NCBI RefSeq assembly: GCF_000012325.1
Contig: NC_003910.7
Coordinates: forward strand, 4,402,001-4,466,000
DNA from: Colwellia psychrerythraea 34H
GTDB taxonomy: Bacteria; Pseudomonadota; Gammaproteobacteria; Enterobacterales; Alteromonadaceae
Length of the DNA: 64,000 nt
Reading direction: 5' to 3'
Shown piece after piece: positions 5,985 to 12,951 of this stretch. The notes under the pieces are model-generated. The model worked only from the letters and a program-made list of their open reading frames with translations, made no database searches and was not told where the DNA came from. Position numbers and translations under genes: made by a program. How positions within the stretch are numbered: position 1 is the first letter of the stretch; each line of letters begins with the position of its first letter.

Positions 5985-6016
5985 AAGAATTCCTTATATA
6001 AGCAAGCGTTGCTATA

Positions 6017-6029
6017 GACATAATATGTC
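6017..6029. promoter_or_regulatory. Candidate operator GACATAATATGTC (copy 1)
   Basis: This 13-bp near-perfect inverted repeat lies about 95 bp before the lipoprotein gene. The same 13-mer recurs at 10205-10217, and its reverse complement at 10241-10253, both upstream of the yjfI-pspA unit. A TTGACA -35-like hexamer (6044-6049) lies just downstream, so a bound protein would sit near the promoter. The identity of the regulator is not visible. Confidence 0.55.
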
Positions 6030-6123
6030 GTTAATGGTATTAATTGACACTTGTCTATGATTTGTCGCTAATATTAATTAACTATTACGATAACATAGCA
6101 TTTTTAAGGAGATGATGGCAGAA

Positions 6124-7101
6124 ATGCACTTACTAAAAACACCTTTTTTATTGCTCTTGATCATAATTACCACGCTTAGTTTAGTTGGCTGTGGTGATCC
6201 TGTAAAAGAGCAAATCGAACAGCAATTACCCATGACCGAGCAAAGAGTTGCTCAGTTAGGTGATGCTTTAAATAATGGTCAAGTTCGCAATGCCAGCTTA
6301 ATTAAAAAATATGCTGATACAGTAATGGTTAATAAGGCGAACTTAGCCCCCTTGATCAATGAGTTTCGTAAAGATGCTTCTACTGATGGCCCTATGTACA
6401 AATCGCTATTAGATAGGATTAATACAGCAAAAAATCAACCACAAATGTTTGAGTCTTCTCAGGCGCTTTATAATGAATTACTAAATATTTACCAAGCAGC
6501 AGATCCCGTACTTTATTCTGATGCATTGAGCGACCCGCTTAATGTATTGGCTGATATGTCTGATGGTCAACTGCCTCGTATTAATTCATTATCAAAATCG
6601 CAGAGTCAGCAAGCCAACAATGCTCAAGATTTCGGTACCGGTGAGCAATTAATTGGTAACCCCAGTTACGGTAACTGGCAAACAGGCAGCAATGGCATGT
6701 CTTTTTGGGCTTGGTATGGCATGTACTCAATGATGGGTGACATGTTTGGCCGACGTACCTCTTATAATGATTGGGGTAGACAGCGTAATTATAGCTACTA
6801 CAACGACTACGGCAGAACACGTTACAGTTCACCAAGCCAATTAAAGAAACAAACGTCGCTTGATACTCGCACTAAGAAGTCGTTCAGTAGTCGCGGGCAA
6901 AAATTTACCAGCCCGTATAGTAAAAATAGAGCGGGATCGTCAAGCTTATCAAGCCAAAGTAAAACAGCCCAAACGAGTGCTAATCGCTTTCGCACCAATA
7001 GTGTGAAGAAAAGCAATTATGCCAGTAAATCTAAAAGCAAAAATTCTAGTTTTAGAAACTCAAACACCAATACATCACGCGGTTTTAGACGCGGGAAGTA
7101 A
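6124..7101 (+). CDS. Lipoprotein of unknown function, basic Ser/Lys/Arg-rich tail
   Basis: This is a predicted outer- or inner-membrane lipoprotein of 325 residues. The signal peptide ends in the lipobox LVGC. The first half is helical and soluble; a Trp/Met/Tyr-rich patch (FWAWYGMYSMMGDMFG) lies in the middle; the last third is a disordered, strongly basic stretch rich in Ser, Lys, Asn and Arg. ATGs at 6112, 6115 and 6124 are possible; AAGGAG at 6106-6111 abuts the first two, so I prefer 6124. It opens a run of genes with DUF350, spermidine-synthase-like and PspA proteins, which suggests an envelope-stress role. I do not recognise a named family. Confidence 0.7.
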   Translation: MHLLKTPFLLLLIIITTLSLVGCGDPVKEQIEQQLPMTEQRVAQLGDALNNGQVRNASLIKKYADTVMVNKANLAPLINEFRKDASTDGPMYKSLLDRINTAKNQPQMFESSQALYNELLNIYQAADPVLYSDALSDPLNVLADMSDGQLPRINSLSKSQSQQANNAQDFGTGEQLIGNPSYGNWQTGSNGMSFWAWYGMYSMMGDMFGRRTSYNDWGRQRNYSYYNDYGRTRYSSPSQLKKQTSLDTRTKKSFSSRGQKFTSPYSKNRAGSSSLSSQSKTAQTSANRFRTNSVKKSNYASKSKSKNSSFRNSNTNTSRGFRRGK

Positions 7102-7132
7102 TGAATAAATAAAGAATAGGAACAGTCAAATT

Positions 7133-8035
7133 ATGAACTCATTCATCGAACTCACTGGTGTTAATCAAGACTTGCTCGTTTATTTGGCCATCGATGTTTC
7201 GATAGCCATATTATTATTAGGGGCTATGCGTTTCCTTTCAGGACTTAGTGCAAAGGTAAACAGTACTGATGAATTAGCCAAAGAAGATAACTTCGCTTTT
7301 GGCATCAGTGTTGCTGGTAGTGTATTAGCGCTAGGCATTGTTCTTACTGGTGCTATTACTGGCGAATCAGCAAGTAGCTATGCTATGGAAGCTATTGGTA
7401 TGCTGGCATACGGCGGTTATGGTTTAATACTGATTAAAGTAGGTCGTATTATCCATGATAAAATTGCACTGCAGCACTTAGATAAAAATGCACTGATAAT
7501 AGAGAAAAACTTAACTATAGGTATTATCGACGCCGCTGGTGCTATTGCAACAGCGATAATCATTCGTGCTGTATTACTGTGGGTAGACGGGCTCGATTTA
7601 AGTACATTCATTGCTATCACAAGTGGATTTATTGTTGCTCAAACCATGTTAGTCATAATTACTCGACTACGCGAACGACAGTATGCTAAAAACAACCAAG
7701 AAGATTGCTTACAAGAAGCGTTAAGTAATGGTCAACTTGCTTTAGCCATTCGTTATAGTGGCCAAGTCATTAGTACCGCTTTAGCGGTAACTGCTGCCAG
7801 TCACTTCCTAATTTATAGCCCTGAAACATTAGTCGTCAATTTACTCGGCTGGTTAGTTTTTGGTATCGGGATGACTTTACTTGTTGCTCTACTTTCTGCA
7901 ATAGCTAAGCGCATCGTGCTTTGGGGAATAAACCTAGTTGAAGAAGTTGATCAACAACATAATATCGGTGTTGCCAGTATTGAAATGGCAACCAGTATCG
8001 CTATAGCCTTAATATTAACGGCACTAATGGCCTAA
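7133..8035 (+). CDS. Membrane protein with two DUF350 repeats (YjfL-like)
   Basis: This 300-residue inner-membrane protein has about eight hydrophobic segments arranged as two similar halves, each resembling the DUF350 domain. E. coli YjfL has one such domain (about 130 residues), so this is a tandem duplication or fusion. It starts 31 bases after the lipoprotein gene and is probably co-transcribed with it. DUF350 proteins are repeatedly found beside PspA and polyamine-related genes; their biochemical activity is not established. Alternating small residues (GAITGES, GIIDAAGAIATA) suggest tightly packed helices. Confidence 0.78.
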   Translation: MNSFIELTGVNQDLLVYLAIDVSIAILLLGAMRFLSGLSAKVNSTDELAKEDNFAFGISVAGSVLALGIVLTGAITGESASSYAMEAIGMLAYGGYGLILIKVGRIIHDKIALQHLDKNALIIEKNLTIGIIDAAGAIATAIIIRAVLLWVDGLDLSTFIAITSGFIVAQTMLVIITRLRERQYAKNNQEDCLQEALSNGQLALAIRYSGQVISTALAVTAASHFLIYSPETLVVNLLGWLVFGIGMTLLVALLSAIAKRIVLWGINLVEEVDQQHNIGVASIEMATSIAIALILTALMA

Positions 8036-8043
8036 TAAAAGTG

Positions 8044-8310
8044 TTATACCTGTTATCATTCAAAGTGCGTGATTTCAGTGGGAGTTAAAAGTGTTTTAAG
8101 CAAGGCATTAATTTTAAACAATGGTTACTCTCTTGTTCAAATTAATAACGCCGCCCAAATCGCTTTTAGCCCCATCGAAGAAGCGTTTGAGCATCATCAC
8201 TACGTCGTTGCACCTTTTTGTAAGGGAATAAGCATTACTACAAAGGTGCGCCTTGTATTGAAATTGCTCAAGCACTCTGAAACAGGCATCTTGATTGGTA
8301 ACGGGTATAA
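8044..8310. repeat. MITE-like element, copy 1 (267 bp)
   Basis: This short non-autonomous element has imperfect terminal inverted repeats: TTATACCTGTTATC at the left end and, read inward from the right end, TTATACCCGTTACC. The core at 8098-8154 (AAGGCATTAATTTTAAACAA then TGGTTACTCTC) matches elements at 38886-39152 and 48385-48662. It lies between the DUF350 gene and the spermidine-synthase-like gene. An open frame of 95 codons across it is an accident of the repeat. Confidence 0.75.
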
Positions 8311-8416
8311 ACTCACCACCATAGTGCGCTCAGGTGCTGGTGGTGAGCATCATTAAACACTGCATAAACTTCATCTATCACTCTCCTTTTACCTTAATTA
8401 CTAGTCACTAATACCT

Positions 8417-10123
8417 ATGGCACAAAACACTTTACCTCAAAAGAAGTCTCACCTACTCGACGATATCTTACTTATTCTAACGATGGCTGTTCTAGCAGGC
8501 TGTGGGCTAATTTATGAGTATTTACTCTCTCATTACGCCGGTCGAGTGTTAGGCGTGATGGAAAGCACTATCTACACCATGATTGGCTTAATGATAGTGT
8601 CGATGGGACTTGGTGCTTTTGCTGCTCGAAAAGTACGTTGTGCTTTTAATGGTTTCGTATGGCTAGAACTTATTATTGCCTTACTGGGTAGCTCTGCCAT
8701 TTTGATCATTGGTGGTTTAATCGCTATTACGCAAATATTCCCGCAACTGATTGCAGATATGTTATCACTTCCGCCTGATATGAAACCTCAAGGTGGGCTT
8801 TTCAAGGATTTAAGTTGGCTAGCGTTTAATAGCCCTTATTTCTTTGGGGTATTACTCGGCTTTTTTATTGGTATGGAGATCCCATTAATTGCTCGCATTC
8901 GTGAGAGCATTCACCAGCAACACCTTGCCAATAATTTAGGCACTATTTATGGCGCAGATTATGTTGGTGCTGGTATTGGTGCGGCGATTTGGGTTGTTTT
9001 TTTACTGAGTTTAGACATTAGTAAAGCAGCAGCACTCACCGCAAGTTTAAACCTAATTGCCGGTGCTTTTTTTATTCTCCGTTATTGGCAACACCTTAAT
9101 TGGCGTAAAACCTTTGTTGCTTTACATTGTGCCTTAGCTTTAATTATAGTTTTAATGTTTAGTTATGGTAATCAATGGCTTAATCAAATGAATAGTCTGC
9201 TCTATCTTGATAAAGTGGTTCACACCGATAAAACTCGTTATCAACAGTTAACCTTTACCGAACGTCATATGGGTCTTGAGCAAGACAATATAATCAATTT
9301 CTATCTAAATGGTCGTTTACAGTTTTCATCTATTGATGAACATATTTATCATGATTACCTTGTTGCCCCTGTAATGGCAGGCTCTGCGCGACATGATAAG
9401 ATATTAATTATTGGCGGCGGTGACGGTTTAGCGTTAAGAGATGTTTTAAAATACAATCCAAAACACGTGACGCTAATTGATTTAGATAGTGAATTAATTG
9501 ATATTTTCAAACAACCAAAGAAGCAAGTAAACCCTCGCTTAGCGAGTCAAATTTTACAGTTAAATAAAAATAGTTTACAAGATGAACGAGTCACAATTTA
9601 TCGTGCTGATGCGTTTATTGCCATTAATCAATTGTTAGAGGATCGACAAACATTCGACGCAATTATTGTAGATTTACCAGACCCAAGTCATCCCGATCTT
9701 AACAAACTCTATTCGGTAAACTTTTATGCACGACTTAAGTTGTTGTTATCAGGTGATGGTTTAATTGCAATTCAATCAACTAGCCCTTATCACGCTAAAG
9801 ACTCTTTTATTGCTATTGGTAATACTTTAGCAGCAGCTAAGTTTTCCCATGTAGAGCAATATCACGATAATGTGCCCAGTTTTGGTGAATGGGGATGGAC
9901 CATTGCCTCTAAGAGTGGCGCTAGTCCGTTAACAAGATTAAACAAACTAACTAAGCTTCCAGTAGCGCATCAATGGTTAAACTTGGCTATATTAAAGGCT
10001 GCTTTCATTTTCCCTAATGATTTTTATCAGAACAAAGATAATATTGGTATTAACATTTTAGGCAGTCATACGATTTATCAATTACACCAAAGCGCTTGGC
10101 AAGATCAACAAGGCTTAAATTAA
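8417..10123 (+). CDS. Membrane-anchored spermidine synthase homologue (polyamine aminopropyltransferase)
   Basis: This 568-residue protein has about seven transmembrane helices in the first 240 residues and then a soluble spermidine-synthase fold. The SAM/dcSAM-binding motif IIGGGDGLALRDVLKY lies near residue 335, and VDLPDPSHPDLNKLYS near 420 carries the acidic residue of the active-site loop. Soluble homologues transfer aminopropyl groups to putrescine; the substrate here is unproven and could be another amine. No strong Shine-Dalgarno precedes the ATG, and the upstream gap is filled by a MITE. Its neighbours (DUF350, YjfI, PspA) match the known association of membrane polyamine synthases with PspA systems. 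Confidence 0.82.
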   Translation: MAQNTLPQKKSHLLDDILLILTMAVLAGCGLIYEYLLSHYAGRVLGVMESTIYTMIGLMIVSMGLGAFAARKVRCAFNGFVWLELIIALLGSSAILIIGGLIAITQIFPQLIADMLSLPPDMKPQGGLFKDLSWLAFNSPYFFGVLLGFFIGMEIPLIARIRESIHQQHLANNLGTIYGADYVGAGIGAAIWVVFLLSLDISKAAALTASLNLIAGAFFILRYWQHLNWRKTFVALHCALALIIVLMFSYGNQWLNQMNSLLYLDKVVHTDKTRYQQLTFTERHMGLEQDNIINFYLNGRLQFSSIDEHIYHDYLVAPVMAGSARHDKILIIGGGDGLALRDVLKYNPKHVTLIDLDSELIDIFKQPKKQVNPRLASQILQLNKNSLQDERVTIYRADAFIAINQLLEDRQTFDAIIVDLPDPSHPDLNKLYSVNFYARLKLLLSGDGLIAIQSTSPYHAKDSFIAIGNTLAAAKFSHVEQYHDNVPSFGEWGWTIASKSGASPLTRLNKLTKLPVAHQWLNLAILKAAFIFPNDFYQNKDNIGINILGSHTIYQLHQSAWQDQQGLN

Positions 10124-10204
10124 TCGATAATACCAAAATGTTTCGCAAAGACAATTGATACAAAGTAACTACAAAGAGTAACAATTAGTTTATAAAAACA
10201 CCTT

Positions 10205-10217
10205 GACATAATATGTC
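10205..10217. promoter_or_regulatory. Candidate operator GACATAATATGTC (copy 2)
   Basis: This is identical to the 13-mer at 6017-6029. It overlaps a TTGACA -35-like hexamer at 10204-10209, so binding would probably block the promoter of the yjfI-pspA unit. Confidence 0.6.
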
Positions 10218-10240
10218 AGGATGTTAAATTTAACTCAGAC

Positions 10241-10253
10241 GACATATTATGTC
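10241..10253. promoter_or_regulatory. Candidate operator GACATATTATGTC (copy 3)
   Basis: This is the reverse complement of copy 2, with centres 36 bp apart. It lies 40 bp before the YjfI start codon. Two sites in one leader suggest cooperative binding. Confidence 0.58.
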
Positions 10254-10292: not shown

Positions 10293-10706
10293 ATGAATAT
10301 TCATACTATAGCCGATCACTTAAACAGCTTGGCAGATAATTCAGACACAGGAATGAGCTTTGATTGCCAACCAATATCTGGCGAAGTCGACGTCCTGCAA
10401 ATTAGCATTTCAGACCGTGAAGAGTTACCAATTTTTGTTTCGGTAACCGAAGACCAAATTATTTGCATCAGCTACTTATGGGGAGCAGAAGAAGTTAAAC
10501 CTGAATGTATTCATGCCATGCATGAGAGCATGTTAGAAATGAATATCCCTATGCCCTTATCATCATTTTCAAAAATTGGTGATAAATATGTAGTCTTTGG
10601 CGCTTTATCTATCAGTTCAAGCTTTTCAGATGTTGAGCATGAATTAGCAGTGTTAAGCAACAATGCTATAGAAGTGATTGATGATATGAGTGATTACTTA
10701 CTTTAG
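10293..10706 (+). CDS. yjfI: YjfI-like DUF2170 protein
   Basis: This 137-residue acidic cytoplasmic protein resembles E. coli YjfI (DUF2170, about 133 residues), the first gene of the yjfIJKLMC operon. The frame is open from 10221, but AGGAAGGATAGGA directly precedes the ATG at 10293, and the longer version would include the candidate operator at 10241. The family has no known enzymatic motif. It is followed 51 bases later by the PspA homologue. Function is unknown; the association with PspA implies a membrane-stress role. Confidence 0.75.
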   Translation: MNIHTIADHLNSLADNSDTGMSFDCQPISGEVDVLQISISDREELPIFVSVTEDQIICISYLWGAEEVKPECIHAMHESMLEMNIPMPLSSFSKIGDKYVVFGALSISSSFSDVEHELAVLSNNAIEVIDDMSDYLL

Positions 10707-10757: not shown

Positions 10758-11447
10758 ATGAGTATATTTAAAAAAATAATGACCGCAATACGTGGCGGTG
10801 CATCAGAAGCTGGTGAAGCTATCATTGATGCAAATGCAACCCGTATCTTTGAACAAGAAATACGTGATGCTGAAAATCACCTTACCAAAGCAAAACGTGA
10901 TTTAACAGGTGTTATGGCTGAGCAAATGTCAGCAAAACGTGAAGTTGATCGTTTAACCCGTGAAGTTTCAGAACACGAAGGTTATGCAACACAAGCACTC
11001 GAAAAAGGTGATGAAACACTAGCACTTGCTGTAGCAGAAAAAATTGCTACCTTAGAAGGTACCTTAGCCGATCAGCAACAAGCTCACGATAGTTTTAGTG
11101 GCAATGCTGAACGTTTGAAAGAGTTAGTTAAGAGAAGTGAGCGTCAAGTTGCCGAGCATAAACGTCAACTGTCTATGGTTAAAACCACTGAAAGTGTACA
11201 AAAAGCGACGTCAGCTATTACCGATAACTTTTCATCAAGCAATTCTAAGCTATTAAGTGCGAAAGATTCTTTAGAACGTATTAAAGCTAAGCAACAAAAG
11301 TTTGATGACAAAATGAAAGCGGGTGAGTTACTTGAATCTGAAAATTCGGATTCATCATTACAAGCGCAGTTAAAAGCCGCAGGTATTGGCTCACAAGACA
11401 ATAGCGCTAACTCAGTATTAGAGCGTTTAAAAGCTAAACAAAAGTAA
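10758..11447 (+). CDS. PspA/IM30 family membrane-remodelling protein (YjfJ-like)
   Basis: This 229-residue protein is almost entirely coiled coil, with the short amphipathic N-terminus (IFKKIMTAIRGGASEAGEAI) that PspA/Vipp1 proteins insert into stressed membranes. These proteins form ESCRT-III-like polymers that protect or repair the inner membrane. TAGGAG lies at good distance before the ATG. E. coli YjfJ is the equivalent in the yjf operon. No sigma-54 promoter or pspF gene is seen, so control differs from the classical psp operon. Confidence 0.88.
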   Translation: MSIFKKIMTAIRGGASEAGEAIIDANATRIFEQEIRDAENHLTKAKRDLTGVMAEQMSAKREVDRLTREVSEHEGYATQALEKGDETLALAVAEKIATLEGTLADQQQAHDSFSGNAERLKELVKRSERQVAEHKRQLSMVKTTESVQKATSAITDNFSSSNSKLLSAKDSLERIKAKQQKFDDKMKAGELLESENSDSSLQAQLKAAGIGSQDNSANSVLERLKAKQK

Positions 11448-11582: not shown

Positions 11583-12224
11583 ATGAGTTTTTTTAAAAAG
11601 ATATTTAATAAATCATCTAACGAACCAAGAAAATTAACAAATGTTAATCAATTACTGGTTGGTGATATTATTGTTTTGACAGATAGCTTTGCCTTACCTG
11701 AGTCCTTGCGTGGACAAGAGTTTCAAGTAAAAGCCGTTAATAGCTATGAATTTGAAGAAAAAGTGCAAACCGAATGGGCCTTAATAGGGACTAACGCACT
11801 AGAAATATTTTTATCACTCGAAGTGGATGATATTACCGAGCTCAAATTATCATTAAAAATTCAGCATGAAGATGTCGAAACCTTATTTGACTTAGACAGT
11901 TTTTCCGAAGTATTCGATGAACCAGGAGAGGCTTTTTTAGAAAAAAAGGCTGACTCCAATATCGCTGCCCTGTGGAGTAGCGAGCAATATCAACAAAGCG
12001 TGTTTGCTAAGGTTGGATTTTTTCACCGTAAAGATCACCGTAGTGAGAACCTCTCGGCTTATGAAGGAAAAGATAGCGGGGAGCAATTTGAATTATATAG
12101 CTTGTATAATGAAGATCAGAGTAAAGGCATTGATATTGAAGTATGGCAAGATGGCGATACTGAAGTGTGCTTAACTTTATTTAGGCCGCTTAGTGATATA
12201 ATTGATATGTATCCAGCAAGTTAA
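11583..12224 (+). CDS. yjfK: DUF2491 protein (YjfK-like)
   Basis: This 213-residue soluble acidic protein resembles E. coli YjfK (DUF2491, 219 residues), normally encoded next to the PspA homologue YjfJ. No catalytic motif is evident; the chain is mixed strand and helix with many Asp/Glu. It follows the PspA gene across a hairpin and is itself followed 12 bases later by a small unknown gene. The role is presumably in the same membrane-stress response. Confidence 0.7.
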   Translation: MSFFKKIFNKSSNEPRKLTNVNQLLVGDIIVLTDSFALPESLRGQEFQVKAVNSYEFEEKVQTEWALIGTNALEIFLSLEVDDITELKLSLKIQHEDVETLFDLDSFSEVFDEPGEAFLEKKADSNIAALWSSEQYQQSVFAKVGFFHRKDHRSENLSAYEGKDSGEQFELYSLYNEDQSKGIDIEVWQDGDTEVCLTLFRPLSDIIDMYPAS

Positions 12225-12236
12225 CCGGAAAGTATT

Positions 12237-12575
12237 ATGGCGAGAAAAATCCCCGATAAATGGCAATCCTCCGTGAAAGCGATAAAAGCGGTGCAGGTCG
12301 CTTTTGATATGGATGAAAAGATCCAACTGTCTATTCGTAAACAGGCACTTGATGCTGGTTTAAGTCCTTCGGATCAAATTCGTGATATTTTAGGCTTACC
12401 AATCAATAAAAGACCCAAGCGACCACGCTTAACTGTGAGTTTAGCTCCTAGTGACTATCAACTTCTCGCTGATAAATATCAACTACAAGCCGAAGATCAA
12501 CTAGAAATTAAGAAGAAACTTATGGATGATTTAATCGCTCATATTAATTCGTGCAACCGCGACGAAAAGGAATAG
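12237..12575 (+). CDS. Small basic protein of unknown function, last gene of the PspA cluster
   Basis: This 112-residue basic protein is rich in Lys and Arg. CGGAAAG precedes the ATG and it lies 12 bases after the DUF2491 gene, so co-translation is likely. The middle segment (SPSDQIRDILGLPINKRPKRPR) and the pattern of a short helix followed by a basic linker suggest a ribbon- or helix-type nucleic-acid-binding fold, but this is only a guess. It could be a regulator of the cluster. No family is recognised. Confidence 0.6.
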   Translation: MARKIPDKWQSSVKAIKAVQVAFDMDEKIQLSIRKQALDAGLSPSDQIRDILGLPINKRPKRPRLTVSLAPSDYQLLADKYQLQAEDQLEIKKKLMDDLIAHINSCNRDEKE

Positions 12576-12693: not shown

Positions 12694-12951
12694 ATGTTAA
12701 AAAAAATTATCGCAGTATCTCTGGCGTTAGCCCTAACAGCTTGTGCCAACACTGATGCACTTGATGCAAATATCACTTCACTAACGAGTAAAGTTGATGC
12801 TTTATCAAGCCAAGTTGCAGATTTAGAGTCACAGCAACAATCTGTATCGGCTGATGTTAAAGCAGCAAAAGCAGCAGCTGAGCAAGCAGCAACTGATGCT
12901 AAAGCAGCAAATGAACGTATTGATAATGTTGTAGCTTCATATAAAAAATAG
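12694..12951 (+). CDS. Lpp/OprI-like alanine-zipper outer-membrane lipoprotein
   Basis: This is an 85-residue lipoprotein with signal peptide and lipobox LTAC (Cys18). The mature chain is one long Ala-rich heptad coiled coil ending in SYKK. In Lpp the C-terminal Lys is joined to meso-diaminopimelate of peptidoglycan, tethering the outer membrane. The terminal Lys is present here, and an L,D-transpeptidase of the right family lies directly opposite. TTAGGAT precedes the ATG. Expression is expected to be high. Confidence 0.85.
   Translation: MLKKIIAVSLALALTACANTDALDANITSLTSKVDALSSQVADLESQQQSVSADVKAAKAAAEQAATDAKAANERIDNVVASYKK

Follow-up and report, generated by a model that had tools for sequence, protein, structure and literature searches.

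A palindromic candidate operator linked to a predicted ribbon-helix-helix protein gene at PspA and other membrane-integrity promoters of Colwellia psychrerythraea 34H and its relatives

PspA proteins are widespread, and to our knowledge the controlling regulator of many PspA operons is unknown. The closest described arrangement is an operon with genes for YjfI (there named CesT/Tir-like), PspA, spermidine synthase, DUF350 and DUF4178 proteins, to which a lipoprotein also belongs and whose final gene sometimes encodes a ribbon-helix-helix (RHH) transcription factor, as set out in the passages on this operon by Ravi et al. (2024; PMC11237479). Related systems are the phage-shock-protein (Psp) response of Escherichia coli with PspF and sigma-54 and the bac operon of Pseudomonas aeruginosa encoding a DUF2170 protein and a PspA homologue, for which BacA has been proposed as negative regulator of its own operon (both in PMC10948618), as well as the Bacillus subtilis sigma-W regulon, where pspA, yuaF-yuaG(floT)-yuaI and yqeZ-yqfA-yqfB stand under one regulator according to the part of PMC3498285 dealing with these genes. 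Here, we analyzed a window of 64,000 nucleotides from Colwellia psychrerythraea 34H (contig NC_003910.7, positions 4,402,001 to 4,466,000 of the forward strand; coordinates below are those of the window unless given for the genome), which bears the gene set of the YjfI-PspA-spermidine synthase cluster (DUF4178 with a match below cut-off), hence the same kinds of genes as in the operon of PMC11237479. A 13-bp palindrome, GACATAATATGTC, lies at the promoters of its yjfI-pspA and lipoprotein-DUF350 units. It is probably bound, as an operator, by a predicted RHH protein whose gene closes the former unit and which would act as an autoregulated repressor of a membrane-integrity regulon and be released by membrane damage.

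The palindrome had originally been predicted at positions 6017-6029 and 10205-10217 (plus strand) and 10241-10253 (read on the minus strand), without another full copy in the window. All three positions are correct, and a further copy is missing even when up to two mismatches are allowed; 1 of 100 shuffles reached the match count of the window. The element is composed of the half-site GACAT, three A/T bases and ATGTC, and is symmetric except for the central A/T. In the whole genome, a single contig of 5,373,180 bases, five exact copies are present, compared to 0.10-0.19 expected per strand from Markov models built on the window. The additional two copies, at genome positions 3161135 and 3161163, are 28 bp apart and directly precede an open reading frame (ORF) for a 223-amino-acid (aa) protein of the YidC/Oxa1 insertase family (PF02096, expect value [E] 1.3e-26). 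The reversed control pattern has no exact copy in this genome and, with one mismatch allowed, gives 2 matches versus 9 forward and 8 reverse matches of the pattern itself. Accordingly, sharing of the palindrome between the two cluster units is corroborated, while its occurrence at promoters far outside the cluster, here and in family genomes, had been missed by the original prediction and leads us to reject a regulon limited to these two units. A site within a 471-aa ORF of the same genome (L302) was dismissed as probably due to chance, and a weak candidate site is GACATAAAATGTC, located upstream of a gene for carbonic anhydrase (PF00484, L009).

At the yjfI-pspA unit, a sigma-70 promoter is predicted at positions 10203..10230 (plus strand), with the -35 element TTGACA (10203-10208), a 16-bp spacer and the -10 element TAAATT (10225-10230). 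Operator O1 (GACATAATATGTC, 10205..10217) overlaps the -35 hexamer, as already pointed out in the original prediction, and operator O2 (10241..10253), at a distance of 36 bp from O1, follows closely on the predicted start of transcription. Likewise, the operator copy before the lipoprotein gene (GACATAATATGTC, 6017..6029) overlaps TAGACA (6015-6020), the -35 of a predicted lipoprotein-DUF350 promoter at 6015..6043 (plus strand) with a 17-bp spacer and the -10 element TATTAA (6038-6043). This anatomy recurs in the named relatives, the best 80 of 369 and mostly Colwellia and Thalassotalea, 75 of which show the full gene order with the RHH gene in last position. Exactly two GACATWWWATGTC sites precede yjfI in 78 of the 80, spaced 35-37 bp in 77 of these, and in all 78 the first site belongs to TTGACA. 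Between the paired sites sits a conserved sigma-70-like -10 element: at 16 bp behind TTGACA, 47 of 49 distinct regions with a spacing of 36 have the hexamer TAAATT, and 22 of 24 with a spacing of 35 have either this hexamer or TACATT. A single GACATWWWATGTC site is found before the lipoprotein gene in 75 of the 80 relatives, the upstream consensus of 75 distinct regions being TAGACATA.TATGTC followed by TG.TAtTAaT (capitals, at least 90%; small letters, at least 60%). With one yjfI site over the -35 and the other past the predicted start, the layout suits repression. Both possibilities that would have spoken against a shared operator, namely that the 13-mer is common at random genome positions or not conserved upstream of these genes in relatives, were thus checked with an outcome in favor of the original prediction.

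In line with the earlier claim of a regulator other than PspF and sigma-54 at this locus, a strict sigma-54-like pattern does not occur within 300 bases upstream of yjfI or of the lipoprotein gene, and was found before yjfI in none of the 80 named relatives bearing the RHH gene. Sigma-54 control of yjfI-pspA was consequently rejected. The pattern is also missing before yjfI in 20 of 20 genomes lacking the RHH gene and, hence, does not separate the two groups. In contrast to the Psp response of E. coli, likewise a PspA-centred membrane-stress response (PMC10948618), the locus shows sigma-70-like promoters combined with palindromes, and it also differs from the bac operon, for which PMC10948618 cites a putative sigma-54 site, the word 'ribbon' being absent from its main text.

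For the regulator, which the original prediction left unnamed, the most likely candidate is the predicted RHH protein with its gene at 12237-12575. Among 118 family genomes, 54 encode an RHH homologue and 56 carry GACATAWTATGTC, with the palindrome present in all 54 RHH-positive genomes (315 sites) versus 2 of the 64 RHH-negative ones (two sites in G026 and one in G117), while the reversed pattern gives 3 sites in all 118. DUF2170 is encoded in 93 of these genomes, including all 54 with the RHH gene, and among the remaining 39 only G117 has a site, a comparison which is not a clean control as in the 20 of the 39 inspected YjfI is of a distant subtype, with no GACATNNNATGTC within 300 bases upstream. 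At order level (384 genomes), the RHH gene is found in 114 and the exact palindrome in 112 genomes, both together in 90. Hence, 90 of 114 RHH-positive genomes have the exact palindrome versus 22 of 270 RHH-negative ones (28 sites), and 24 possess the RHH gene alone, 22 of them belonging to family f11; the reversed exact pattern occurs in 8 of 384. The three yjfI leaders fetched from f11 have a changed A/T centre, with a second copy reading GACATTAAATGTC or GACATTTAATGTC and the first being imperfect in one half, and two leaders from family f7 have GACATTTTATGTC twice. A paired-site pattern, composed after inspecting these f11 and f7 leaders, occurs in 101 of 384 genomes, namely in 100 of 114 with and 1 of 270 without the RHH gene, and its reverse in 0 of 384. 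The position before yjfI was checked for part of these pairs, and the one in G139 precedes a PspA gene on another contig. In the exceptional RHH-negative genome, G222, yjfI and the pair lie on a contig of 4,394 bp, close to its end, and the sequence stops before the expected RHH position, so that the RHH gene may have been cut off.

At class level, the RHH protein is encoded in 13 of 369 genomes. Besides G000 and G001, this concerns 11 loci, of which six have one or more exact copies upstream of yjfI, three have copies that appear decayed by eye and two are without yjfI detected nearby. Adjacent copies are 15-18 bp apart, and L355 has a third copy 31 bp further. At two of these loci, the exact copy before yjfI lies in regions with a guanine-plus-cytosine (GC) content of 63% and 67%, respectively. 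An AT-rich 13-mer in a window of 38% GC might represent merely a chance palindrome or a part of another element, for example, a terminator, but the number of copies in the Colwellia genome, the distribution of the paired pattern with its empty reversed control and the persistence at high GC leave this explanation practically no probability.

Palindrome and RHH gene are, accordingly, strongly linked, but the evidence is correlational and comes from the sequences of related genomes. As the binder cannot be named from co-occurrence alone, another regulator encoded elsewhere might bind the palindrome, with the RHH gene only travelling along with the cluster, and the 20 inspected genomes lacking that gene indeed have another YjfI/PspA subtype. 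We regard this as quite improbable, because the RHH gene is found close behind yjfI also where other cluster genes are undetected (L212, L213, and L357) and in GC-rich regions (L356 and L357), yjfI there still being preceded by the palindrome or by a copy with one mismatch. Furthermore, the RHH protein is the sole cluster product recognized as DNA-binding-like. In genomes lacking the RHH gene, the yjfI leaders (L378, L380, L384-L387, L389, L391, and L393) often share, as judged by eye, another motif resembling GTGACGTATAATTTACA upstream of a TTGAC promoter, perhaps the site of another regulator.

The proposed regulator, a protein of 112 aa (12237..12575, plus strand), is assigned from co-occurrence, a structure model and weak Pfam matches in relatives. 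In the model, residues 17-55 have RHH proteins as top structural matches (Arc, CopG, NikA, and ArtA), whereas the C-terminal half matches mixed DNA-binding folds, making a second RHH unit no more than possible; a first model based on alignment A1 was uninformative (predicted local distance difference test score of 65). RHH proteins typically bind short operators over promoters. The predicted fold of the N-terminal segment would be like that of Arc, CopG, NikA and other members, but the protein differs from these by its chain of 112 aa, the second half of which gave no settled fold, and by its proposed chromosomal membrane-stress targets. The window protein itself matched no Pfam family, gave as sole NCBIfam row an ABC-transporter model far below cut-off, and returned nothing useful in a sequence search of solved structures. 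Among 32 relatives, weak Pfam matches were obtained to NikA-like (11 proteins, best E 0.0031), RHH_1 (one, 0.027) and FitA-like RHH (one, 0.13) families, with the unrelated families EAD7 (0.0015, four proteins) and phage RB18 ORF43 (0.0028, six proteins) scoring equally in some relatives. The UniRef name of relative P0032 starts with 'Ribbon-helix-helix protein CopG', while most of the other names listed read 'hypothetical protein'. In some f7 genomes, a second, divergent RHH homologue is present without yjfI detected nearby (L217 and L218), and at L208 and L211 an ion-channel-like gene, judged by eye, follows the RHH gene.

For a survey of targets, regions picked around known sites were sampled, amounting to 161 site groups from 49 genomes (34 from the family and 15 from outside). 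For four of the latter (G118, G131, G192, and G232), sampling was confined to the cluster. Automatic assignment succeeded for 119 groups (83 of 109 in the family and 36 of 52 outside), leaving 42. Besides yjfI and the lipoprotein gene, candidate targets in the family are genes for NhaA, NfeD, a small secreted protein, YqiJ-like proteins, HtpX, a second YidC (YidC2), other PspA proteins, alpha-type carbonic anhydrase, SPFH proteins and Yip1. Outside the family, HtpX (10 of the 15 genomes sampled), NfeD, YqiJ-like, NhaA, SPFH, AIM24 and PspA genes were found. The YqiJ-like class comprises YqiJ-domain proteins (L085 and L320) and the commoner L098 type without a Pfam match. At L082, an SPFH gene (PF01145) is located behind NfeD, and the gene next to the YqiJ gene of L085, on its downstream side, matches flotillin FloT below the cut-off (E 1.7e-13). 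By eye, the 26 unassigned family groups include five SPFH/HflK-C-type-like (only L106 was profile-scanned), four small-secreted-protein-like and one lipoprotein-unit-like; of the others, three lie in the RHH-negative genomes G117 and G026. Among the 16 unassigned groups outside the family, two (L220) represent yjfI and lipoprotein promoters. In four f7 genomes, a site pair precedes a PspA-like gene located outside the yjfI cluster (L366-L369).

The position of sites at these promoters bears on the sign of regulation. At four of the eight NfeD promoters shown (L305, L307, L331, and L335), the operator ends 21 bp before TATAGT and is centred near -40, a usual position for an activator, so that the RHH protein might bind as an activator, either generally or at some promoters while repressing others. 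This we consider unlikely, as occlusion is better suited by the yjfI-pspA sites overlapping the -35 and the start region, by the lipoprotein site overlapping the -35, and by the HtpX promoters, where in 8 of the 11 shown the site, downstream of CTTGAA, occupies the expected position of a -10 (L304, L308, L318, L321, L327, L333, L338, and L340). The CTTGAA element resembles heat-shock sigma promoters, making dual control of HtpX possible. Repression is, thus, the better-supported sign, with the NfeD promoters leaving room for activation.

In unstressed cells, the RHH protein would repress by occlusion, covering the -35 (O1) and the region just past the start (O2) of the yjfI-pspA promoter as well as the -35 of the lipoprotein-DUF350 promoter. 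Its gene being inside the repressed unit, the protein would limit its own level. Membrane damage might then free the RHH protein, perhaps via a partner, for example, YjfI or PspA, which is proposed because a 112-aa chain has little space for a sensor domain. Such a signaling role is conceived by analogy with the PspA-PspF pair. Further targets would be the second YidC-type insertase in strain 34H, and HtpX, NfeD/SPFH, YqiJ-like, NhaA and other PspA proteins in relatives. While the sites, their conservation, their association with the RHH gene and the genes downstream of them can be read from the genomes, binding, stoichiometry, repression, inducing signal and partner are postulated here. The full scheme, in which an RHH repressor limits itself and perhaps comprises two RHH units per chain, with YjfI/PspA as damage sensor and a broad membrane-integrity regulon (PspA, flotillin/NfeD, HtpX, spare YidC, and ion/pH homeostasis) in many Gammaproteobacteria is tentative, and we give it slightly less than even credence.

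The cluster genes are all on the plus strand. The second unit starts with the lipoprotein gene (6112..7101, no Pfam family over cut-off), followed by genes for a YjfL-type membrane protein (7133..8035; DUF350, PF03994, E 2e-31) and a membrane-anchored spermidine-synthase-like protein (8417..10123; PF01564, E 1.8e-33; NF002956, E 8.9e-183), with a 95-aa ORF between them (8069-8356) that gave no Pfam and no convincing NCBIfam match. The other unit comprises yjfI (10293..10706; DUF2170, PF09938, E 3.2e-39), pspA of the YjfJ type (10758..11447; PF04012, E 6.7e-40), a gene for a DUF4178-like protein (11583..12224; PF13785 with an E of 9.3e-4 that misses the family cut-off, and nothing useful in the NCBIfam scan) and, beginning 12 bases further, the RHH gene as the last one. 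Behind the latter, a small Lpp-like lipoprotein is encoded at 12694-12951 (PF04728, E 4.3e-17).

The operon and its terminal RHH gene are already known from PMC11237479, while the operator, the promoter layout and the regulon are not given in that paper's passages on the operon. A literature search, mostly outside subscription journals, found none of these three, and the 13-mer was met in one unrelated plant paper only, its other strand in none. Compared with the sigma-W regulon as described in PMC3498285, an RHH protein with its operator is proposed here in place of an alternative sigma factor, and the gene sets overlap only partly. Now that an operator has been delimited and its operon encodes a candidate regulator, this proposed membrane-stress response becomes directly testable. 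The recurring targets provide a functional list for uncharacterized neighbors, among them YjfI, DUF350, DUF4178 and the small secreted protein. They would also join NhaA, HtpX and flotillin-type genes with PspA in one response. The palindrome may, thus, mark a wider membrane-stress response in related marine bacteria.
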